This document shows positions 622 to 32,954 of a stretch of DNA of 41,373 nt, piece by piece (the stretch's first letter is position 1; each line of letters starts with the position of its first letter). Below the pieces are notes generated by a model. That model saw nothing but the letters and a program-made list of their open reading frames with translations. It did not search any database and had not been told where the DNA came from. The translations under genes and the position numbers were made by a program. The DNA is from Nitrospira sp. (GTDB lineage Bacteria; Nitrospirota; Thermodesulfovibrionia; Thermodesulfovibrionales; SM23-35): assembly GCA_016873615.1 (NCBI GenBank), contig VGWX01000014.1:1-41373 (forward strand), in the 5' to 3' direction.

Positions 622-965
622 GAAACAATTAGCTTAGCATTGAGGATATCTGAGTCATTTTAGGCTTCTAAGACCTTATTATTTACTATTTTTAATCATA
701 AGCACCTATTATCGATATTTTTCACAATTTACAATTAAACATTCCTTGCAATAAATGTGAAGCCCGAATAATCTTGAGAAAAAAATCCTTAAACTGTCCT
801 TCTGTCTATAATGAAAATGATCTTCTTTTCCCCCTGATTTGTTGCTATACTTTTAAACAGATGTAACCCCTGAGTAACGTATATTTATTGTTGTCAGGCT
901 TATGCTATGTCAATTATAAAATGAACCCTATTATAATTACGCAGGAAAAAATAACGGAGGTGGCT
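622..965. other. AT-rich intergenic region
   Basis: No gene is seen here. It separates the minus-strand ncRNA from the plus-strand alpha-2-macroglobulin gene. TATAAT at 807-812 and TATACT at 846-851 are possible -10 boxes for the latter, but neither has a good -35 at proper spacing. The Shine-Dalgarno GGAGG is at 956-960. Confidence 0.35.
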
Positions 966-3900
966 GTGAGGTACAAGGCATTGTTATTATTATTTGCTGT
1001 CTTTGTTTTATCACCCTATTTCCATACTTCCCTCTCTGCAGAAAAGGCCGCTCAGATCGATATGTTCTCGCCGCAGGGTGGGGTCAAAGATGTACGGCAG
1101 GTCAGTGTGCGGTTTTCCGAACAGACGGTTCCATTCGGAGACCCGCGTCTTGCTGAACCATTTGATATCAAATGTCCGGCAAAGGGAAAGGGGCGATGGC
1201 TGGATGGAAAAAACTGGGTCTATGATTTTGAAAAACACCTCCCGGCTGGGGTAATCTGTGAATTTATTCTGAAGCCGGATTTGAAGACCCTTTCAGGAAA
1301 ACAGATAACAGGGTTGAAACAATTTTCATTTTCTACAGGCGGACCGGCTATAAAAGAATCTGTTCCCTATGAAGGGTCTGAATACATAGATGAAGACCAG
1401 GCATTCATCCTTATGCTCGATGCAGAACCTTCTGAAGAATCAGTCCTGTCAAATGCTTCATGCGCCATCGAAGGGATAAACGAGCGGGTCGGAATAAGGA
1501 TCCTCAAAGGCGGGGAAAGGGAGAAGATACTGAAGGTCCACCGTGACGTCCGTTATAAAGATACGCCCGGATTGATACTGCAATGCAGGCAGAAATTTCC
1601 GGAAAGCGCAAAAGTCAGCCTTATTTGGGGCAAAGGTATAAAGTCCCTTAGCGGTGTTGAAACAACTGAGGATCAGACGCTCCATTTCAAAACACGTCTG
1701 CCCTTCACAGCCACATTTCGGTGTGCGAAAGAGAATCCGAATGCCGGTTGCATCCCCCTGCTTCCTATGCGCCTTAATTTCTCAGCGCCGGTCCCAGTGA
1801 AATATGCAGAAAAGATTGTTCTCAAAGGACCTGATAATAAGGTCTATAAGCCTGACAAACCATACGAGGAAAATGCAGAAATCATATATTCACTGTCCTT
1901 TGCAGGCCCGTTCCCTGAGAATACTTCTTTTAGCATTGAAGTTCCGGGAAATATGCAGGATGAAGCAGGAAGGGTTCCGGAAAACAGGGAGAAGTTCCCT
2001 CTTACGGTTAAAACAGATGCTTATCCGCCGCTTGCCAAATTTTCAGCCCGCTTCGGAATCATTGAGCTTGCAGGCAATGCTGCGCTTCCGGTGACCCTCA
2101 GAAACCTTGAGCCTGAGGTCAAATCCAGGATGCTGAAGATTGATGACAGTGAAAATGGCGACGAAGTGAATGCAAAGGGATATGCCGGCGGGGTGAAGGC
2201 CAGGATTCATAAGGCCCAAAAAAATATAGAAGAAGAGATTATCGAATGGATGAAAAAACTTGCCTCAGCAGAAAGGGAAGCCTCAATTTTCAGTAATAAG
2301 GATGACAGGAAAGAAATTTCAATTCCAAAACCGGAGGGCTCAAAGGCATTTGAGGTTATCGGGATCCCTCTGAAAGACGCCGGGTTCTATGTTGTCGAGC
2401 TTGAGAGCGCGATACTTGGAGCCTCTTTGCTTAATAAACAAAAGCTCATGTATGTTCCTGCAGCAACTTTGGTCACAAACCTCTCGGCTCATTTTAAATG
2501 GGGGAGGGAATCATCTTTGGTCTGGGTGACAACGCTTGATAAGGCAGAGCCGGTGAAAGACGCCTCTCTATCAATCAGGGATTGTAAAGGCAAGGAGATA
2601 TGGAGCGGGAAGACTAATGAAGGCGGCATCGCAAAGATAGATTTTCATCTGCCATCAGATCAGGAGCTGCCTCAATGCCCTGTGAATGTAAATTATTCAG
2701 AGTCTTCAAATGTACTTTCAGGCATAGGCAGGGGACTGTTTGTCTTCGCAAGGAATTCTGATGATATTACATTTGTGCATTCATCATGGGATAACGGGAT
2801 CGAGCCGTGGAGGTTTAACCTCCCGCCTGCTTCGTATCAGGGGCCGATAAGCGCGCATACCATATTAGACAGGACGCTTTTGAGGGCAGGTGAGACTGTC
2901 AATATGAAGCATTTGGTCAGAAAGCGGACCATGTCCGGCTTCTCAATGTTGCAGGATTCAGAATTGCCCAAAGCTATTTTGATTCAGCATAGCGGAAGCA
3001 ATCAGAGATACGAATTCCCTTTGGTATGGGATTCAAAAGATATAGCAGAGACAACGTGGGAGATACCTCCGGACGCCAGGCTCGGCAATTATGAGGTCAC
3101 CCTCCTGAAGAAGGCAACGGAAAACCCCCGATCACGGACTGATGCGGGTGGGACGGAAGAATATTCTTATGCTGATGGCTGGATGTCTGGCTCGTTCAGA
3201 GTTGAAGAATTCAGAGCGCCTCTCATGAGGGCTGTAATACAGCCGGTACAGGATACATTGATTAATGCATCTGAGGCTGATGTCGACCTTTCAGTTGCGT
3301 ATCTGTCGGGCGGAGGCGCGGGCAATGCCCCGGTTAAATTGAGAAGCCGGCTACAGCCTAAATATGTAAATTTTGATGATTATGAAGACTTTGTCTTTGC
3401 AAACGGCACTGTTAAAGAGGGGACAGTCCGGAGATCCGACTACGAAGAAAATGATGAAGAGCCGGTAAGGAAAAAGCCGGCAATTCAGACGCATGAGCTT
3501 AAACTTGATAAGTCCGGAACAGGCAGGGTGAAGATAACAAAATTGCCTGCGGTATCGTCTCCACAGACGCTCTCCACAGAACTTGAATTCAGGGACCCGA
3601 ATGGCCAGGTTCAAACCGTTTCCCAAAAAATACCTCTCTGGCCTTCAAAACTGATCCTTGGGATAAAGCCTGATTCCTGGGCAGCTTCAAAGGAAATATT
3701 CAGATTCCATGTGGCTGTACTTGATCTGAAAGGCAGACCAATGCCGGATAAATCAGTAAAGGTGGATCTGTTCCGGAAAAAATACTATTCCCACAGGAAA
3801 AGGCTCATAGGAGGCTTTTACTCCTATGAACACGTGACCGAGATAAAGCGTGTTGGCCGCATTTGCGAGGGGCAGACAGATTCAAGAGGTCTGCTCATAT

Positions 3901-6734
3901 GCGAGACTCAATCTCCTGTCTCCGGTAATCTGATTCTTCAGGCAGAAGCTCAAGATGATTCAGGAAATAAGACTGCTGCATACAGAGATGTATGGGTTGC
4001 CGGCAAAGGAGAATGGTGGTTTGATGTGTCTGACAATGACAGGATTGATCTCCTTCCTGAGAAAAAGAGATACGAACCTGGAGAGACTGCCAAATTCCAG
4101 GTCAGGATGCCGTTCAGAGAGGCGACAGCCCTTGTCACTGTAGAAAGAGAAGGGATTATCGAGACATTCATTCAGAGATTATCCGGGAAGTCAGCGTCAA
4201 TAGAGATCCCTGTTCAGGGGTCATATGCGCCGAATGTTTTTGTCTCAGCCCTTGTTGTGCGCGGCCGCGCAGGCGACATACAGCCTGCTGCAACAGTTGA
4301 CCTCGGAAGGCCTTCGTACAAGATCGGCATCGCAGAGATCAGTGTCGGGTGGAAGAGGCATGAGCTTAAGGTGAATTTGTCCTCTGATAAAGGTGTATAC
4401 AGGATCCGGGATAAGGCAAATATCCATATAAAAGTCACAAGGGCAGATGGAAAGGCCCTGCCGGCAGGGAGCGAGGCTGCAATTGCTGCTGTTGATGAGG
4501 GGCTTCTTGAACTGATGCCGAACAGCAGCCTCAAACTCCTCAATGCAATGATGGGAAGAAGGGGTTATGAAATACTTACCTCAACTGCCCAAATGCAGGT
4601 TGTCGGAAAAAGGCATTACGGCCTGAAGGCATTGCCGCATGGCGGCGGCGGCGGGAAACAGATAACAAGGGAATTATTCGATACCCTTCTATTATGGAAG
4701 GCGCGCCTCCCTCTCAATGAAAAAGGCGAAGCATCAATAGAAATACCGCTCAATGACTCATTAACCTCATTCAGAATTGTGGCTGTTGCAAACGGAGGAG
4801 CAGACCTTTTTGGTTCAGGAGAAACAAGCATAAGGACAACCCAGGATTTGATAATCCTCTCCGGAATCCCGCCGCTGGTGCGGGAGGGCGATGCCTTTAA
4901 GGCTACCTTTACCATCAGAAATGCGTCTGACAGAAAGATGGACCTGGAGGTAAAAGCAAATATTGATGGTATTCCCGGGAAGACAGAACCAGAAACAGTG
5001 AACGAATCCCTTTCAGCAGGTGAGGCAAAGGATATCAGTTGGGAGATTCATGTCCCTCAAGGGGTCGATCATCTGAATTACGAAATAACAGCAAAGGAAA
5101 TGCCCCTTCTATCCCCCACTTTGGAAAAGGGGGGCAAGAGGGGATTTGACCAGGCTCAGGACAGCATTAAAGTCAGCCAGAAGGTTATAGAAGCCGTGCC
5201 AATAAAAACATTCCAGGCAACAATTACGCAGATTGAAAACAGTTTTAACATGAAAGCAGAAAAGCCTGAAGATGCATTGTCTGGTAAGGGCGGGATAAGT
5301 GTTTCATTCAGGCCGGGGCTTTCAGGCGGACTGGATGGTGTTATACGGTTTATGAAAGAGTATCCATACGCCTGTATGGAGCAGAAGGTTTCAAGGGCGG
5401 TTAGCCTGCGGGATGAAACCCTATGGAAAAATCTTATTTCAGAACTTCCTTCTTATCTTGATTCAGACGGGCTCGTAAAATATTTCCCGTCATCAGGCCG
5501 CGGAAGTGATACGCTTACTGCCTATATCCTCTCTATTTCAGACGAGGCCGGATGGAAAGTCCCTGAACATATAAAAGACCAGATGGCGACTGGTTTAAAG
5601 GGGTTTATTGAAGGAAGGGTCAACAGATATTCATTGCTTCCAACAGCAGACCTGTCCATAAGAAAAATGGCTGCATTAGAGGCCTTGTCCAGGAGCGGAA
5701 AGGCAGAGTCAAGTCTCCTTGGCTCGATATCAATAGAACCGAATCTCTGGCCAACGTCTGCTGTCATAGACTGGATAAATGTGCTTCTGAGGATGAAGGG
5801 GATACCTGACCAAGAGAGGAAGTTGAAGGAATCCGAACAGATAATCAGGTCAAGGCTGAACTTTCAGGGAACAACAATGGGTTTTTCGACAGAGCGCACA
5901 GATTATCTCTGGTGGCTGATGGTTTCTGCAGACCTCAATGCTGTGAAGAGTATTCTTGCGCTGTTGAGTTTTGAAACCTGGAAAGAAGATATGCCGCGGC
6001 TTGTGAGAGGAACATTAGGCCGTCAATACAAAGGAGCATGGAATACAACGATCGCAAATGCCTGGGGAGTTCTTGCTATGGAGAAATTCTCGCGGAAGTT
6101 TGAAAATATTCCAATAACAGGGATAACAGCGGCTTCACTTGATAAAAAGACTATTGATACTGACTGGGCAAAGACTCCTGATGGAAGGAGCATGATGTTT
6201 GACTGGCCAAAGGCAAAAGAAGACCTTGCCATTACTCACAATGGAACCGGAAACCCCTGGGCAATAATCCAGGGCCTTGCATCGATTCCTCTTAAAGAAT
6301 CTCTCTCAAGCGGATACAGGATTAAAAAGACGCTTATCCCTGTAGAACAAAAGGAGAAGGGGAAATGGAGCAAGGGTGATGTAGTAAAAGTCCATCTTGA
6401 TCTTGAGGCGCAATCTGATATGACGTGGGTTGTAGTAAATGACCCTGTTCCCGGAGGGGCAAATATCTTGGGAACAGGGCTGGGAAGGGATTCACAGATT
6501 CTGACGAGGGATGAAGAAAGTAAGGGATGGGTCTGGCCTGCATTTGAAGAACGCTCATTCGGGGCGTTCAGGGCATATTATGAATTTGTGCCAAAAGGGA
6601 AATGGACAGTTGAATATACATTAAGATTAAACAACGAAGGCATATTCATTCTCCCGGCTACAAGGGTTGAGGCGCTCTATGCTCCGGAGATGCTGGGTGA
6701 AATGCCGAATGAAAAAATAGAGATAAGACCGTAA
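966..6734 (+). CDS. Bacterial alpha-2-macroglobulin (YfhM-like)
   Basis: Large periplasmic protease-trapping protein of about 1922 residues. I chose the GTG at 966 because GGAGG ends five bases before it and the product then starts with a clean signal peptide (RYKALLLLFAVFVLSPY, cleavage after SLSA); earlier ATGs would bury the signal. No lipobox cysteine is present, unlike E. coli YfhM, so the protein is probably soluble in the periplasm. The MG2-like segment around LDRTLLRAGETVNMKH, the AAVDEGLLELMP segment and the thioester motif CMEQ (Cys about 1470) are visible. In this family the thioester covalently captures attacking proteases. Pairing with pbpC downstream is the classical arrangement and suggests defence of the envelope when peptidoglycan is breached. 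A palindromic element is inserted in frame near residues 1380-1394. Confidence 0.93.
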   Translation: MRYKALLLLFAVFVLSPYFHTSLSAEKAAQIDMFSPQGGVKDVRQVSVRFSEQTVPFGDPRLAEPFDIKCPAKGKGRWLDGKNWVYDFEKHLPAGVICEFILKPDLKTLSGKQITGLKQFSFSTGGPAIKESVPYEGSEYIDEDQAFILMLDAEPSEESVLSNASCAIEGINERVGIRILKGGEREKILKVHRDVRYKDTPGLILQCRQKFPESAKVSLIWGKGIKSLSGVETTEDQTLHFKTRLPFTATFRCAKENPNAGCIPLLPMRLNFSAPVPVKYAEKIVLKGPDNKVYKPDKPYEENAEIIYSLSFAGPFPENTSFSIEVPGNMQDEAGRVPENREKFPLTVKTDAYPPLAKFSARFGIIELAGNAALPVTLRNLEPEVKSRMLKIDDSENGDEVNAKGYAGGVKARIHKAQKNIEEEIIEWMKKLASAEREASIFSNKDDRKEISIPKPEGSKAFEVIGIPLKDAGFYVVELESAILGASLLNKQKLMYVPAATLVTNLSAHFKWGRESSLVWVTTLDKAEPVKDASLSIRDCKGKEIWSGKTNEGGIAKIDFHLPSDQELPQCPVNVNYSESSNVLSGIGRGLFVFARNSDDITFVHSSWDNGIEPWRFNLPPASYQGPISAHTILDRTLLRAGETVNMKHLVRKRTMSGFSMLQDSELPKAILIQHSGSNQRYEFPLVWDSKDIAETTWEIPPDARLGNYEVTLLKKATENPRSRTDAGGTEEYSYADGWMSGSFRVEEFRAPLMRAVIQPVQDTLINASEADVDLSVAYLSGGGAGNAPVKLRSRLQPKYVNFDDYEDFVFANGTVKEGTVRRSDYEENDEEPVRKKPAIQTHELKLDKSGTGRVKITKLPAVSSPQTLSTELEFRDPNGQVQTVSQKIPLWPSKLILGIKPDSWAASKEIFRFHVAVLDLKGRPMPDKSVKVDLFRKKYYSHRKRLIGGFYSYEHVTEIKRVGRICEGQTDSRGLLICETQSPVSGNLILQAEAQDDSGNKTAAYRDVWVAGKGEWWFDVSDNDRIDLLPEKKRYEPGETAKFQVRMPFREATALVTVEREGIIETFIQRLSGKSASIEIPVQGSYAPNVFVSALVVRGRAGDIQPAATVDLGRPSYKIGIAEISVGWKRHELKVNLSSDKGVYRIRDKANIHIKVTRADGKALPAGSEAAIAAVDEGLLELMPNSSLKLLNAMMGRRGYEILTSTAQMQVVGKRHYGLKALPHGGGGGKQITRELFDTLLLWKARLPLNEKGEASIEIPLNDSLTSFRIVAVANGGADLFGSGETSIRTTQDLIILSGIPPLVREGDAFKATFTIRNASDRKMDLEVKANIDGIPGKTEPETVNESLSAGEAKDISWEIHVPQGVDHLNYEITAKEMPLLSPTLEKGGKRGFDQAQDSIKVSQKVIEAVPIKTFQATITQIENSFNMKAEKPEDALSGKGGISVSFRPGLSGGLDGVIRFMKEYPYACMEQKVSRAVSLRDETLWKNLISELPSYLDSDGLVKYFPSSGRGSDTLTAYILSISDEAGWKVPEHIKDQMATGLKGFIEGRVNRYSLLPTADLSIRKMAALEALSRSGKAESSLLGSISIEPNLWPTSAVIDWINVLLRMKGIPDQERKLKESEQIIRSRLNFQGTTMGFSTERTDYLWWLMVSADLNAVKSILALLSFETWKEDMPRLVRGTLGRQYKGAWNTTIANAWGVLAMEKFSRKFENIPITGITAASLDKKTIDTDWAKTPDGRSMMFDWPKAKEDLAITHNGTGNPWAIIQGLASIPLKESLSSGYRIKKTLIPVEQKEKGKWSKGDVVKVHLDLEAQSDMTWVVVNDPVPGGANILGTGLGRDSQILTRDEESKGWVWPAFEERSFGAFRAYYEFVPKGKWTVEYTLRLNNEGIFILPATRVEALYAPEMLGEMPNEKIEIRP
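5103..5145. repeat. C-rich palindromic element, in-frame copy 1
   Basis: C-tracts followed by CTTTGGAAAAG and G-tracts form a long hairpin inside the alpha-2-macroglobulin gene, encoding roughly PLLSPTLEKGGKRG. The same design recurs at 7959, 10208, 14846 and 14895. The frame stays open and the thioester lies about 80 residues further on. Confidence 0.8.
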
Positions 6735-6777
6735 GCCTCATAAATCATGTGCTTGATATAACTACAAGGAGGATGAA

Positions 6778-7104
6778 ATGAAAATCGGTATCCTAATTTC
6801 AACAGGTGACGCAGAGACAATCTGGAATGCTTTTCGTTTTGCAAATCTCTGTCTAAACACAAACGTGAACGACGAAGTATCGATATTTATGCACGCAAAA
6901 GCCGTGGAATATGAGAATTGTGACTCGGAGAAATTCAAAATAAAGGAGCTGGCGAAAGCATTTGTCCTGAGCGACGGCAAACTGCTTGCATGCGGCAAGT
7001 GTCTTGGCTTCAGGGGACTGGAAGAGAATAACGTCTGCCGTAAGGGTAGCCAGAAAGACCTCTACGAAATGGTTATGACAAGCGATAAACTTGTCTGTTT
7101 CTAA
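6778..7104 (+). CDS. DsrE-like sulfur-relay family protein
   Basis: A 108-residue cytosolic protein beginning MKIGILISTGDAETIWNAFRFAN, the start of a DsrE/DsrF/peroxiredoxin-like alpha/beta fold. Cysteines cluster in ACGKCLGFRG (around residues 71-74), in NVCRKG and at the C-terminus (LVCF). DsrE-family proteins carry sulfane sulfur on a conserved cysteine, but the substrate here is unknown. AAGGAGG at 6766-6772 sits five bases before the ATG. It lies between the alpha-2-macroglobulin and pbpC genes with short gaps, probably in the same transcript, which is an unusual interruption of that pair. Its role in the envelope operon, if any, is unclear. Confidence 0.75.
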   Translation: MKIGILISTGDAETIWNAFRFANLCLNTNVNDEVSIFMHAKAVEYENCDSEKFKIKELAKAFVLSDGKLLACGKCLGFRGLEENNVCRKGSQKDLYEMVMTSDKLVCF

Positions 7105-7141
7105 GTTGTAAAGATGAGCAAAAAGACCGGGGAATCATAAA

Positions 7142-9523
7142 ATGAAAGCGTTATTTACCATTTTAATATTTCTTGCTCTTGTATCAAATGCTTATTCCCT
7201 GCCTTCTTTTCAGGAAGTAAAAGACTCTTACAGAAAATCGGATGCGGTTTTATTGGACAGGCATGGAAAGATCATCCATGAACTCAGGGTAGATCCAAAA
7301 TTCAGACGGCTTGACTGGACATCTATTGAAGATATTTCTCCGGCTCTCATAAAGGCAGTTGTTCTTTCTGAGGACAAAAGATTTTATGAGCACCATGGCG
7401 TTGACTGGCTTGCTGTCAGTTCAGCATTTATAGAAAACCTTTTTAGAAAACAGTCGCGCGGGGCAAGCACAATAACGATGCAGCTTGCATCGATGCTCGA
7501 TGAAAGTCTGAAACCAAAAGGTTCGAAGAGGACAATAGGACAGAAGTGGGATCAGATGGAAGCTGCAAAAAAACTGGAAGAGACATGGTCGAAAAAAGAG
7601 ATACTTGAAGCATATCAGAACCTTCTTGCTTTCCGTGGTGAATTGCAGGGGGTTTCTGCTGCATCAAGAGGGCTTTTTGATAAAGAGCCGGCCGGGCTGA
7701 ATGAATCAGAATCCCTTATACTGGCATCTCTTATAAGGTCGCCAAATGCCACTATCGAAAAGGTAGGCAGCAGGGCATGCAGCCTTGGCAGTTCTTTGAA
7801 TTCATCTGTTAAATGCGAAGATATCAGGGCGCTTGCTGAAAGGACTCTGACCAATAAATATTCAATCAAGCAGAGAACAGCGCTCGCACCTCATGTGGCA
7901 TATCAGTTGTTAATGAATATCGATAGCAAACCTTATGGAATTGCTAAACAAGACGGTAATCCCCCCATCCCCCCCTTTAGCAAAGGGGTGATAGGGGGAT
8001 TTGGCGAAAACAGTCAAAAGGAAATTGAGGTTTCAACAACACTCGACAGGGATCTCCAGAGCTATGCCGCTGATGTTTTAAAACATCATATATTGTCTGT
8101 CAGGCATCAGAATGTGAACGACGGAGCTGTCCTGATCGTCGAAAACAAGACAGGAGATGTCCTTTCATATGTCGGCAGTATAGGTGACGAATCAAGCGCA
8201 CGCTATGTTGACGGAATAAGGGCAAAAAGACAGGCAGGTTCAACGCTCAAGCCGTTCTTATATGCGCTTGCACTTGAAAAACAGGTTCTGACGCCGGCAT
8301 CAATATTAAGCGACAGCCCTGTCGACATTTCCACCGGCCTTGGTGTTTATAAACCTGAGAATTATGAGAATGATTTCAAGGGTATGATTTCCGTGCGTAC
8401 GGCGCTTGCCTCTTCACTGAATATTCCTGCTGTCAGAACTCTTTCCCTTACCGGCATAGACCCCTTTATCCAGAAACTCAAACTCCTGGGGTTTAGCCAG
8501 TTGAAGAGTGATGATTACTACGGGTTTTCTGTTGCCCTGGGTTCGGCTGATGTCAGTCTATGGGAACTGGTTAATGCATATCGCACCTTGGCCAATAATG
8601 GTTTCAGGAATGATTTAAGGCTGAGATTTGAAGATGCTGATGGAGTCATAAGTAAGACCTCACGATCGTCATTCACGCAAGCGGAGCGCGTCGGGAATCC
8701 TTCTGAAAACAAAGAAAGATTCCGGACAAGCCGGAATGACAAACCGGCGACTGAATATGGCCTTACTTATGAACTCATTAGTAAGGATGCAAAGAGTACC
8801 CGTGTATTTTCTGAAGAAGCGGTGTTCCTCATATCAGATATACTCTCAGACAGAGAAGCACGAAGCTATACATTCAGTCTTGAAAATCCGCTTTCCACAA
8901 AATACTGGAGCGCTGTAAAAACAGGGACGAGCAAGGATATGAGAGATAACTGGTGCATCGGATATTCAGACAAATATACCGTAGGGGTATGGGTCGGCAA
9001 TTTCTCAGGCGCTGCTATGTGGAATGTAAGCGGTATTACAGGCGCTGCACCTGTCTGGCTTGAGATTATGAACTATCTCCATCAGAGAAATCCGGTTATG
9101 CCGCCTAATCCCCCTTCAGGAGTTTTTGCAAAGAGGATAGAGTTTCAGAACAACATAGAACCTGCAAGGGTTGAATGGTTTATACAGAATACCGGACCGG
9201 CAATTGCAATCTCGGATGAAACAATAATTACCCTTAATACAGCACATGATTTCCCTCATATTCTCTATCCATCTGATGGGACAACAATCGCTTTAGACCC
9301 TGATATCCCGGTCGAAAATCAATATATATTTTTTGAGGCTGAGACCTCTCACAACGACCTTGATTGGATTCTGAATGGACAGAGTATAAGCAAGACATTC
9401 CAGGCGGCGCTTTCATGGAAGCTTAAGCAAGGCAAATATCTGTTATCTCTTATAGATAAAAAAAAACGTGTTATCGACTCTGTAGTGTTCCAGGTGAGAG
9501 GCGCTGCTCATTCCTCTGAATGA
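7142..9523 (+). CDS. pbpC: Penicillin-binding protein 1C
   Basis: Bifunctional peptidoglycan glycosyltransferase/transpeptidase, 793 residues, anchored or secreted through the N-terminal hydrophobic segment (residues 3-19). The glycosyltransferase motifs EDKRFYEHHGVD (E77) and RGASTITMQL (106-115) are intact. The transpeptidase has STLK (Ser367 nucleophile), SSLN and KTGTSKD (593-599). A C-terminal region of about 170 residues fits the PBP1C extra domain. The neighbouring alpha-2-macroglobulin is its usual partner. Two palindromic elements of different families lie inside the gene in frame: near residues 273-287, between the glycosyltransferase and transpeptidase, and near 509-533, inside the transpeptidase before KTG. 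Both replace what would be loops. All catalytic motifs remain, so activity is plausible. Confidence 0.94.
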   Translation: MKALFTILIFLALVSNAYSLPSFQEVKDSYRKSDAVLLDRHGKIIHELRVDPKFRRLDWTSIEDISPALIKAVVLSEDKRFYEHHGVDWLAVSSAFIENLFRKQSRGASTITMQLASMLDESLKPKGSKRTIGQKWDQMEAAKKLEETWSKKEILEAYQNLLAFRGELQGVSAASRGLFDKEPAGLNESESLILASLIRSPNATIEKVGSRACSLGSSLNSSVKCEDIRALAERTLTNKYSIKQRTALAPHVAYQLLMNIDSKPYGIAKQDGNPPIPPFSKGVIGGFGENSQKEIEVSTTLDRDLQSYAADVLKHHILSVRHQNVNDGAVLIVENKTGDVLSYVGSIGDESSARYVDGIRAKRQAGSTLKPFLYALALEKQVLTPASILSDSPVDISTGLGVYKPENYENDFKGMISVRTALASSLNIPAVRTLSLTGIDPFIQKLKLLGFSQLKSDDYYGFSVALGSADVSLWELVNAYRTLANNGFRNDLRLRFEDADGVISKTSRSSFTQAERVGNPSENKERFRTSRNDKPATEYGLTYELISKDAKSTRVFSEEAVFLISDILSDREARSYTFSLENPLSTKYWSAVKTGTSKDMRDNWCIGYSDKYTVGVWVGNFSGAAMWNVSGITGAAPVWLEIMNYLHQRNPVMPPNPPSGVFAKRIEFQNNIEPARVEWFIQNTGPAIAISDETIITLNTAHDFPHILYPSDGTTIALDPDIPVENQYIFFEAETSHNDLDWILNGQSISKTFQAALSWKLKQGKYLLSLIDKKKRVIDSVVFQVRGAAHSSE
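7959..8000. repeat. C-rich palindromic element, in-frame copy 2
   Basis: A 42-base unit starting ATCCCCCC and ending GGGGGAT, with centre CTTTAGCAAAG. It is exactly 14 codons long and reads as NPPIPPFSKGVIGGF inside PbpC, in the linker between its two enzymatic domains. Confidence 0.85.
8668..8740. repeat. GTCATTC...GAATGAC element, in-frame copy
   Basis: A 73-base unit bounded by GTCATTC and GGAATGAC with internal inverted segments (GGGAATCC, GATTCCGG). It encodes a serine/arginine-rich stretch of about 25 residues in PbpC. Related units are at 17301-17326, 20000-20074 and 30816-30899. Confidence 0.8.
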
Positions 9524-29697: not shown

Positions 29698-29712
29698 CGG
29701 TTGACAAGTGAC

Positions 29713-30057
29713 ATGAACTGGACTGTTGAGTATTACAGAGATTCAAAAGATAAGGAGCCTGTTAAAGACTTTATTGATGGTCTTCCGGAGAAATCGCAGG
29801 CCCAAGTAATCGGGAAAATTGAACTTTTAGCAAAATATGGCGTATTGCTGAAAGAACCATATACACGGCACATTAAAGGGAAGATTTGGGAGTTGAGAAT
29901 AATGATCGGCAAGGGATACAGCCGAATCTTTTATTTTTCATACACAGGAAGAAGGTTTGTTTTGCTGCATGCCTTTTTGAAAAAAACAGACAAAACACCG
30001 CCGGCAGAAATAGACATAGCTGAAAAGAGAATGCAGGATTTTATAAAAAGACAGTAG
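29713..30057 (+). CDS. higB: HigB/RelE-like toxin (Gp49 family)
   Basis: A 114-residue protein, MNWTVEYYRDSKDKEPVKDF at the start and GKIWELRIMIGKGYSRIFYF in the core, matching phage Gp49-like/HigB toxins that cut mRNA on the ribosome. The tail LLHAFLKKTDKTPPAEIDIA is typical, with the basic residues intact. I use ATG 29713; a TTG at 29701 is possible. No good ribosome site precedes it, in line with a near-leaderless transcript that would keep toxin synthesis low. Confidence 0.88.
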   Translation: MNWTVEYYRDSKDKEPVKDFIDGLPEKSQAQVIGKIELLAKYGVLLKEPYTRHIKGKIWELRIMIGKGYSRIFYFSYTGRRFVLLHAFLKKTDKTPPAEIDIAEKRMQDFIKRQ

Positions 30058-30076
30058 AGGCCTACGGAGGATATAG

Positions 30077-30397
30077 ATGAAAAAGAAATATGTAAGAGGG
30101 ACAACCTTAGAGGAACATAAGGCAGATCTCATGAAAAATCCGAAATTCAGGAAAGCATGGGAGGAGTTGCAACCCGATTTCGATCTTATGGAAAAAATGA
30201 TTATAGCGAGAGGAAAGGCCGGGGTATCTCAGAAAGAATTAGCGCAAAGGATTGGTACAAAACAGAGTGCTATCGCTAGACTTGAAGGTGGAGGTTTTAA
30301 CAAGGCGACCATCGAAACATTGGGGAAAATCGCCGACGCTCTTAATTTTAAGTTAGTCATAAAGCTGCAGCCCAAAAAGGAAGCTACGGCACGATAA
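30077..30397 (+). CDS. higA: HigA-like XRE antitoxin
   Basis: A 106-residue protein with a helix-turn-helix of the XRE class (AGVSQKELAQRIGTKQSAIARLEGG, about residues 50-75). The N-terminal 45 residues probably wrap the toxin. A GGAGG ribosome site at 30065-30069 gives it much better translation than the toxin. The toxin-first order and the gap of 19 bases are normal for HigBA. It likely represses the promoter through the palindrome at 29679. Confidence 0.9.
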   Translation: MKKKYVRGTTLEEHKADLMKNPKFRKAWEELQPDFDLMEKMIIARGKAGVSQKELAQRIGTKQSAIARLEGGGFNKATIETLGKIADALNFKLVIKLQPKKEATAR

Positions 30398-30967: not shown

Positions 30968-32902
30968 TTAAATCTTCACAGGGTCGACATCAACTTTTAT
31001 TTTCACGTCCTTTTGGTTTTTGAATGCCTGGAGCAGGGATTTTGCTGTGGAGTGAAGTTTTTCACGTAGAGAGGATTTCAGAAGTAATTTGTATTCATTT
31101 TCACCTTTTTTGTTTTTTTCTATATAAGGACCGAGTATTTCAACGTCATCGACTGGTTTTTTTATATTCTGTACTTTGCCGGAGATGTCTCTCCTGGTTA
31201 TGAATTTGATTAACAGCAGCTTTGAAAATGGCGGATAGGAGAGGTCTCTGCGTCTCTGCAATTCTTCTTTGAAGAATGAGTTGTAGTCATAATTCTTAAG
31301 GCATTTATAAAGATAATTCTGCGGCATCCTTGTCTGGATAAAGACTTCTCCATCAGGGTCAATCTTATCAATAATAGATAGAATTTCCTGATAAGACTTT
31401 TCTGCTGACCTGAAATCAGGGAGATTAAGGTACAAGTCTGTGTTCAGAATGGCAGCCATTGCGAATCTGCTTTCACTCCCCAATCTTTTGGTCATCAGTT
31501 TTGTGCCGATAAAAATCCTGTTAGCATCTGTGAAGGTCGCCCCGATCAGAGCTTCAACCTCTGATTTATTTTTTGCCCTGTCGCTGTCGAGCCTGAGGGC
31601 TTTTATACCTAAAAGAGCCTCAAGGTCTTCCTGTACCCGCTGTGTTCCGGCTCCAAGTAGTTGTATGTTATAGCCTTTGCACTTGCTGCAACTTTCAGGT
31701 ACTTTGGACAGGGTGTATCCGCAATAATGGCATTTCATTGACATGTCCTGCTTGTGAAATACCATCGGAATCCTGCACGCAGGACATTCCTCTATATGAC
31801 TGCAGTCCATACATTGAAGGAGGGTTGAGTGTCCCCTCCTGTTAATAGCAAATATAATCTTTTTGTCGTTTTTTATATGCTTTGCGGCTGCATCGGTTAT
31901 GGTTTTCGACAGATAAGGTTTGATATGTTTTTCGTATCTCATATCAATTACCTTAACCTTCGGTGTTTTTATGTCAAATGAAGGGTTCAGCAGGGTATAT
32001 TTCCCTGATCTGCAGTTATAGAAAGACTCGATGGATGGACTTATGGATGAGAGGAGTACGACTGCCTTTTCAAGATAACCCCTCATTACTGCAACGTCCC
32101 TTGCATTATAGCATGGACTGTTCTCCTGTTTATAAGAGCTGCTGTGTTCGTGGAGCACTGCAATGAAGGATACCTTTTTCAAAGGAGCAAAAACAGCAGA
32201 CCGGGTGCCCAGGACAATATCTGAATGGCCGGAAAGAATTCTGCCGATTGATTCAGATCTCTGCCCCCTGCTCAGTTCACTGTGTAAAAGACAGACCCTT
32301 TCTCCAAAACTCCTGTTTAGTAAAATGTACAGGTTATTTATTAGGCATACCTCCGGAACCAGAATGATTACATTTGAGGTTTCAGAGAGTATCCCTGTTA
32401 GCAATGAGTCTTCATAGGAGGAAGAAGGGGCATGAAGGAGAAATGTCTTATATGTCTCTTTTTTAAATGATTTTATAAGATCAGCAACCAGATTATTATT
32501 GACCTTAATTACATTTGTCCCGTTGTCTTCTCCATTAAGCTTTTCCGACAGAGAGTGACTGAGAACTTTTGTCTTTCTTTTCTTTACGCTTGTAAATGCT
32601 TCTTTGGGCAGCATGTTTTTCAGGACAAGCCCCTGTTCAGCTATATAATATTCAGACATCCACTTCAATAGCTTGACCATTCTGTCGCTCAAAACAGGGC
32701 TGTCACCGTGAATATCCTGAATTTCCTTGATATTTCCGGATAGTATTGCCGGAGATATACCCATAACTATCCCTTTTGTTATCTTGTTCTTCAGCGGGGC
32801 GCTCACAGCCATGCCAGGGGTTATTGTTTTCAGAAATGCGTCAGGACATCTGTAGGTGAGAGGGCCTATATTGAGAGGAAAGATGATATCGAAAAAATTC
32901 AT
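30968..32902 (-). CDS. priA: PriA-like primosomal protein, degenerate ATPase
   Basis: About 644 residues of replication-restart protein PriA. The DNA-binding N-terminus (FDIIFPLNIGPLTYR), the eight zinc cysteines (CMDC, CPAC, CHYC, CSKC), GTQRVQEDLEAL and NLPDFRSAEKSYQ are in place. The Walker A loop is gone: LLHAPSSSYED (residues 155-165) replaces the usual GxTGSGKT. The Walker B DEEH is LHEH (250-253), followed by an intact SSYKQE. So ATP hydrolysis and unwinding are probably lost while DNA and partner binding may remain; in E. coli, ATPase-dead PriA still supports primosome assembly. The start at 32902 is the best fit to the family; an ATG nine codons upstream exists. Confidence 0.88.
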   Translation of the reverse strand: MNFFDIIFPLNIGPLTYRCPDAFLKTITPGMAVSAPLKNKITKGIVMGISPAILSGNIKEIQDIHGDSPVLSDRMVKLLKWMSEYYIAEQGLVLKNMLPKEAFTSVKKRKTKVLSHSLSEKLNGEDNGTNVIKVNNNLVADLIKSFKKETYKTFLLHAPSSSYEDSLLTGILSETSNVIILVPEVCLINNLYILLNRSFGERVCLLHSELSRGQRSESIGRILSGHSDIVLGTRSAVFAPLKKVSFIAVLHEHSSSYKQENSPCYNARDVAVMRGYLEKAVVLLSSISPSIESFYNCRSGKYTLLNPSFDIKTPKVKVIDMRYEKHIKPYLSKTITDAAAKHIKNDKKIIFAINRRGHSTLLQCMDCSHIEECPACRIPMVFHKQDMSMKCHYCGYTLSKVPESCSKCKGYNIQLLGAGTQRVQEDLEALLGIKALRLDSDRAKNKSEVEALIGATFTDANRIFIGTKLMTKRLGSESRFAMAAILNTDLYLNLPDFRSAEKSYQEILSIIDKIDPDGEVFIQTRMPQNYLYKCLKNYDYNSFFKEELQRRRDLSYPPFSKLLLIKFITRRDISGKVQNIKKPVDDVEILGPYIEKNKKGENEYKLLLKSSLREKLHSTAKSLLQAFKNQKDVKIKVDVDPVKI

Positions 32903-32954
32903 ATGAAATTCTATCACATTTGTTATCATTCTTATCTTTGTGTCATAATTTATT

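Follow-up and report, generated by a model that had tools for sequence, protein, structure and literature searches.

Almost all PriA proteins carry the motor motifs, although E. coli is viable when the motor is lost, and annotation describes actinobacterial PriA as a protein that probably lacks helicase activity. The PriA of Deinococcus radiodurans, in which Walker A and Walker B are degenerate, shows neither ATPase activity nor unwinding and binds single-stranded DNA, forks and DnaB (Lopper et al., 2015; PMC4504706). No clear priB or dnaT gene is present in that genome (PMC4504706). These authors left open whether bacteria with such a pseudohelicase use another helicase, or reload the replisome only where no remodelling is needed (PMC4504706). 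In E. coli, the K230A variant of PriA still permits DnaB loading in the presence of PriB, DnaT and DnaC (PMC10175261). The sequence-only reading of the DNA studied here stated that E. coli PriA can load the primosome when its ATPase is dead, and this is documented (PMC4504706; PMC10175261). A pseudohelicase PriA has already been published and tested for Deinococcus, which that reading missed. What is new here is the complete, order-wide erasure of the motor in Nitrospirota, together with a second dead group carrying other lesions and a transitional family. No paper describing a PriA pseudohelicase in Nitrospirota was found in the literature searched.

The PriA gene of the window

The window is a stretch of 41,373 nucleotides from a draft Nitrospira sp. 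genome of the order Thermodesulfovibrionales. Its priA gene lies on the minus strand as an open frame, intact as previously read, which ends at 30968 and encodes 653 amino acids from the ATG at 32929 or 644 amino acids from the ATG at 32902. Since relatives align from the second of these methionines, the 644-residue protein is the likelier product, and the coordinate of 32902 given earlier was right. The features of the gene are as follows.

30968..32902, minus strand: priA pseudohelicase coding sequence, 644 amino acids, with the ATG at 32902 the better supported start
32606..32866, minus strand: 3'-binding domain (PriA_3primeBD, PF17764), kept, E 7e-18
32648..32662, minus strand: SSB-tail pocket residues W90 and Y94, counterparts of K. 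pneumoniae Trp82 and Tyr86
32408..32431, minus strand: former Walker A (motif I), APSSSYED where GVTGSGKT is expected
32144..32155, minus strand: former Walker B (motif II), LHEH where DEEH is expected; only the third residue (E. coli E322) is kept
32036..32050, minus strand: former motif III, SSISP where GSATP is expected
32000-32002, minus strand: SSB-tail pocket K310, the third counterpart
31679..31813, minus strand: cysteine-rich region (PF18319); its eight zinc cysteines never vary in the 92 order members, and the inter-cysteine spacing is largely unchanged
31475..31507, minus strand: former motif V, GTKLMTKRLGS where GTQMxAKGHDF is expected; the motif V glycine is gone
31349..31390, minus strand: former motif VI (arginine finger), QEILSIIDKIDPDG where TQxAGRAGRGxxxG is expected, three residues shorter
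30980..31174, minus strand: C-terminal domain (PriA_C, PF18074), kept, E 1.5e-7

The protein is recognizable as PriA by its scores above the cut-offs of curated models, its eight zinc cysteines and the PriA fold of its AlphaFold model. It matches TIGR00595 (priA) with 372.6 bits against a cut-off of 230.35, and the matches to PF17764, PF18319 and PF18074 all exceed the Pfam gathering cut-offs, while the DEAD and Helicase_C models give scores below theirs. The residues of the SSB-tail pocket are those defined in K. pneumoniae PriA (PMC5531588).

All four signatures of an active superfamily 2 PriA helicase, namely Walker A, DEEH/DEEQ, GSATP and GRAGR, are gone, and this combination of degenerate ATPase motifs with retained DNA-binding domains is that of a pseudohelicase. 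The sequence-only reading had correctly described the destroyed Walker A, the change of DEEH to LHEH, the retained zinc cysteines and the SSYKQE stretch, which is unchanged in the window PriA. Its claim that the late helicase motifs are kept was wrong, as the SAT motif has become SSISP, the motif V glycine is missing, and the arginines of motif VI are replaced in a shortened segment. PDFRSxE, GEVFIQT and the C-terminal domain are the remnants of the late region. The erasure covers every ATP-site motif, beyond Walker A and Walker B alone. From its sequence, the window PriA very probably neither binds nor hydrolyses ATP, in which case it would not unwind DNA.

Motif loss across Thermodesulfovibrionales

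The order was sampled with 92 PriA sequences from all 13 families, a few of them clipped by contig ends, and compared with 48 PriA sequences of the phylum classed as intact and with E. coli PriA. The P-loop (G[KR][ST]), SAT and GRxGR motifs are each absent in 92 of 92 order members across the 13 families, and all 48 intact sequences carry the P-loop and DEEH or DEEQ. The loss is therefore clade-wide, a point on which the earlier interpretation depended, and no relative with intact motifs occurs among the sampled order members; a recent mutation or a sequencing error is ruled out by the same order-wide distribution. Judged from these alignments, the motif loss is far beyond chance. A stray DE persists at motif II in seven of the 92 proteins, E322 is retained in 91, and the position of K230 is occupied by glutamate in 86% (E. 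coli numbering here and below).

Among the residues that never vary in intact PriA, the order has lost Q203, most of the P-loop, D320, E321, G355, A357, T358, R380, G545, Q580, G583, R584, G586 and R587, and Q420 is likewise among the order-wide losses. Those kept in at least 95% of the order are Y88, G93, E322, Y327, R338, S356, P359, all eight cysteines, E572, R625, P631, P632, G674, P675, D728 and P729. Set against each other, the two lists indicate that the loss tracks the ATP site and spares the rest of the protein. The SSB-tail pocket is largely retained, with its tryptophan in 91, its tyrosine in 89 and its lysine in 86 of the 92 sequences. Loss of the wedge hairpin of the cysteine-rich region was ruled out by the mostly unchanged spacing. 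A link between motor loss and the missing winged-helix region was ruled out as well, since the linker at this position is equally short in most intact PriA enzymes of the same class.

Copy number, selection and gene neighbourhood

The source genome is a draft of 2.9 Mb in 216 contigs with 99.98% completeness, and it holds one PriA_3primeBD match and one match to the whole protein. The window PriA is thus the sole PriA, and a second, full-length or intact copy, which would have undermined the earlier interpretation, is not present. Across the order, PriA_3primeBD was found in 163 of 176 genomes and in 123 of 126 high-quality genomes; 149 of the 163 have one match and 14 a second, weaker one. 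These second matches, in G071, G092, G102, G104, G106-G109, G146, G147 and G157-G160, lie outside the best matches listed.

The priA genes of the order are under purifying selection. Five close pairs, each within one family, give dN/dS of 0.17-0.26, and a sixth pair, from family f10, gives 0.20. Per-domain values are all below 0.4 except for one of 0.60, a short-region estimate from a pair with few changes. For intact pairs outside the order, the whole-gene values are 0.13-0.16; because those of the order are slightly higher, selection may perhaps be slightly relaxed relative to intact PriA. The earlier proposal of a selected loss of ATPase, rather than decay, is supported by the order-wide distribution, the single copy, these dN/dS values and the invariant zinc cysteines.

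Within the family, the priA locus is syntenic, with a divergent TPR gene and after it ispE, prs, rplY and pth (names from reading of the translations). At 29701-30397 of the window, a pair of genes for a RelE/HigB-like toxin and an HTH antitoxin-like protein separates priA from the next conserved gene; ORFs resembling such a pair did not show up at the priA locus of L022 and L024, two loci of the same family. Elsewhere in the window, 888-9523 is occupied by a large alpha-2-macroglobulin-like gene and then a penicillin-binding protein 1C-like gene, again from reading of translations. Palindromic repeats (CCCCCTTT...AAAGGGGG) occur around positions 5127, 7971, 10220 and 14858, several of them in frame inside genes, where they yield peptides like PPxPPFxKGGxGG. 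This peptide also turns up in other PriA proteins: L003 and L014 carry it in the linker, and the intact L163 in the C-terminal domain.

Other dead PriA enzymes in Nitrospirota

In the sister orders of the class PriA is intact, with the exception of family f18. This family is half-eroded: L126, with GIAGSGKT and DEEQ present and GRAGR gone, lacks the motif VI arginines only, and L164, with DEEQ and GSATP present, has lost the P-loop as well; DEEQ and GSATP or GSSTP stay. Family f18 is possibly a snapshot of pseudohelicase formation.

A second dead group of the phylum comprises L131-L140, L146-L154, L165 and L166 (families f29, f32, f37 and f41-43), from genomes that are presumably Nitrospira-like. 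As in Thermodesulfovibrionales, the P-loop, SAT and GRxGR are absent in these proteins and the cysteines are retained. Their own lesions are a P-loop that is mostly one residue shorter, aspartate or glutamate at D320 and a G355 that is often retained. Unlike in the order, W83 and K371 of the SSB pocket are mostly lost.

In a PriA tree built without the motif columns, the order forms one clade (SH-aLRT 100), including some very divergent families on long branches, and the second dead group is nested among intact PriA enzymes (91). Forcing both dead groups into one clade is 37 log units worse, with an AU p value of 0.0597, at which the constraint is not rejected. A single origin of all dead PriA enzymes of the phylum was set aside because the tree separates the groups, though one clade remains compatible with the AU test. 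The better reading of these sequences, though not a proven one, would be two independent losses and one in progress within Nitrospirota.

Predicted structure

The AlphaFold model of the window protein has a pLDDT of 90.2. Its best match in the PDB is the fork-bound PriA of 8fak (8fak_H), a PriA/PriB/fork complex, with Z 34.0 and rmsd 2.9 over 609 residues; for the ADP-bound PriA of 4nl4, the values are Z 28.3 and rmsd 3.4 over 532. A model of an intact PriA of the same class gives Z 34.7 and rmsd 3.1 over 612 with 4nl4, and Z 33.3 and rmsd 4.8 over 594 with 8fak, and is by rmsd nearer to the ADP-bound form; with one model each, the intact one from 63 sequences, and alignments equal in size but different, this comparison is a lead and not a result. 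When E. coli PriA binds a fork, its zinc domain swings by about 85 degrees and a pore forms around the lagging-strand single-stranded DNA (PMC10175261). The models tentatively suggest that a PriA without ATP could be held in this fork-bound, pore-forming, loading-competent shape as an always-on loading platform, the helicase having been lost two or more times in Nitrospirota and family f18 standing midway; we regard this as a doubtful extension.

Partners and helper helicases

DnaB is present in all 12 genomes that were checked. DciA was found in 74 of 75, in the groups with dead and with intact PriA alike. DciA is presumably a partner of the window PriA; its gain along with motor loss was ruled out, as both groups have it. 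A DnaC/DnaI loader was also discarded, since, going by their length and copy number, the matches to PF01695 (IstB/DnaC family) appear to be frames of DnaA length or transposase helpers of IS21 elements.

Among potential helper helicases, recG is apparently absent from 5 of 35 dead-order genomes (f8 and f9) and, in the same class, from 2 of 16 genomes with intact PriA (f14). In these near-complete genomes (G084, G089, G090, G106 and G108 of f8/f9; G196 and G310 of f14), no RecG exceeds the model cut-off. The idea that a dead PriA makes RecG dispensable, taken from E. coli recG/priA300 genetics, was not upheld, as the absences in both groups leave no clear association. RecQ was likewise rejected as a replacement helicase, being patchy in both dead and intact groups. 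For RecG, RecQ and DciA, an association with dead PriA was sought and none was found.

Proposed function of the PriA pseudohelicase

With a probability of roughly 80%, the single-copy PriA of the whole order would be an ATP-independent, fork-binding scaffold for the reloading of DnaB, and not an unwinding motor. This proposal is supported by the loss of the ATP site, order-wide retention, purifying selection, intact zinc and terminal domains, the predicted PriA fold, the shared syntenic locus in relatives and the presence of DnaB and DciA, and it follows the precedents of D. radiodurans PriA and of E. coli K230A PriA. PriA would have been retained because the cell still needs its non-motor job. 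It would recognize abandoned forks, with the 3'-binding domain on the nascent leading 3' end and the helicase lobes on the arms, and dock on SSB. The zinc domain would hold the single-stranded lagging DNA, and DnaB, the replicative helicase, would be recruited, probably with DciA as loader. The substrates of such a scaffold would be forks with a lagging strand that is single-stranded from the outset, or is exposed first by another helicase.

The missing ATP-site motifs, the dN/dS slightly above that of intact PriA, the long branches and the strong divergence of some families could also reflect relaxed decay, in which another restart pathway has taken over and the gene is eroding or has a minor residual role. 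However, PriA is found in 163 of 176 genomes, all 92 sampled genes have a long open frame, none of the eight cysteines varies, and between families whole domains are preserved at 32-50% identity, which makes decay very improbable. A repurposed protein, for instance a regulator or a structural fork protein by which DnaB is no longer reloaded, would equally have a dead enzyme core, and its partners would be invisible to sequence or fold comparison. Outside the ATP site, however, the residues kept are the same as in intact PriA (Y88, G93, E322, R338, R625, PP631-632, GP674-675 and DP728-729), and the SSB pocket is largely retained, so that repurposing seems unlikely.

The use of nucleotide through an altered site might be read from the residues now common at the motif sites in the order (A-P-S...E at the old P-loop and S-P at the old SAT). 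Yet Q203, the P-loop, D320/E321, SAT and both motif VI arginines were lost together, and a P-loop-like string occurs anywhere in the protein in only one of the 92 order members (L064); an altered site is scarcely credible.

Comparison with known systems

Dead PriA in one order, intact PriA in its sister orders, a second dead group and a half-eroded family together amount to a natural experiment, in which comparison can tell apart the residues that the motor requires and those that loading requires, and which offers matched pairs for biochemistry.

The PriA of E. coli and Klebsiella (4nl4, 8fak and 6dgd) shares with the window PriA the 3'-binding domain, the two helicase lobes, the cysteine-rich region, the C-terminal domain and the W/Y/K of the SSB pocket, at about 23-28% identity in structural alignment. 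It differs in having the ATP site that the window PriA lacks. In addition, the linker at the position of the E. coli winged helix is about 70 residues shorter in the order, though already short in most intact PriA enzymes of the class, and the PriB-contact residues T482 and H483 of E. coli are not conserved in the PriA of the order.

The likeness to D. radiodurans PriA lies in the degenerate Walker A and Walker B; binding of forks and DnaB without ATPase was shown there, and is proposed here. As Deinococcus belongs to a different, distant phylum, the loss there is presumably independent of that in Nitrospirota. The PriA of Deinococcus-Thermus keeps part of motif I, with GKT changed to GRT, whereas that of Thermodesulfovibrionales has lost the P-loop, SAT and the arginine finger.
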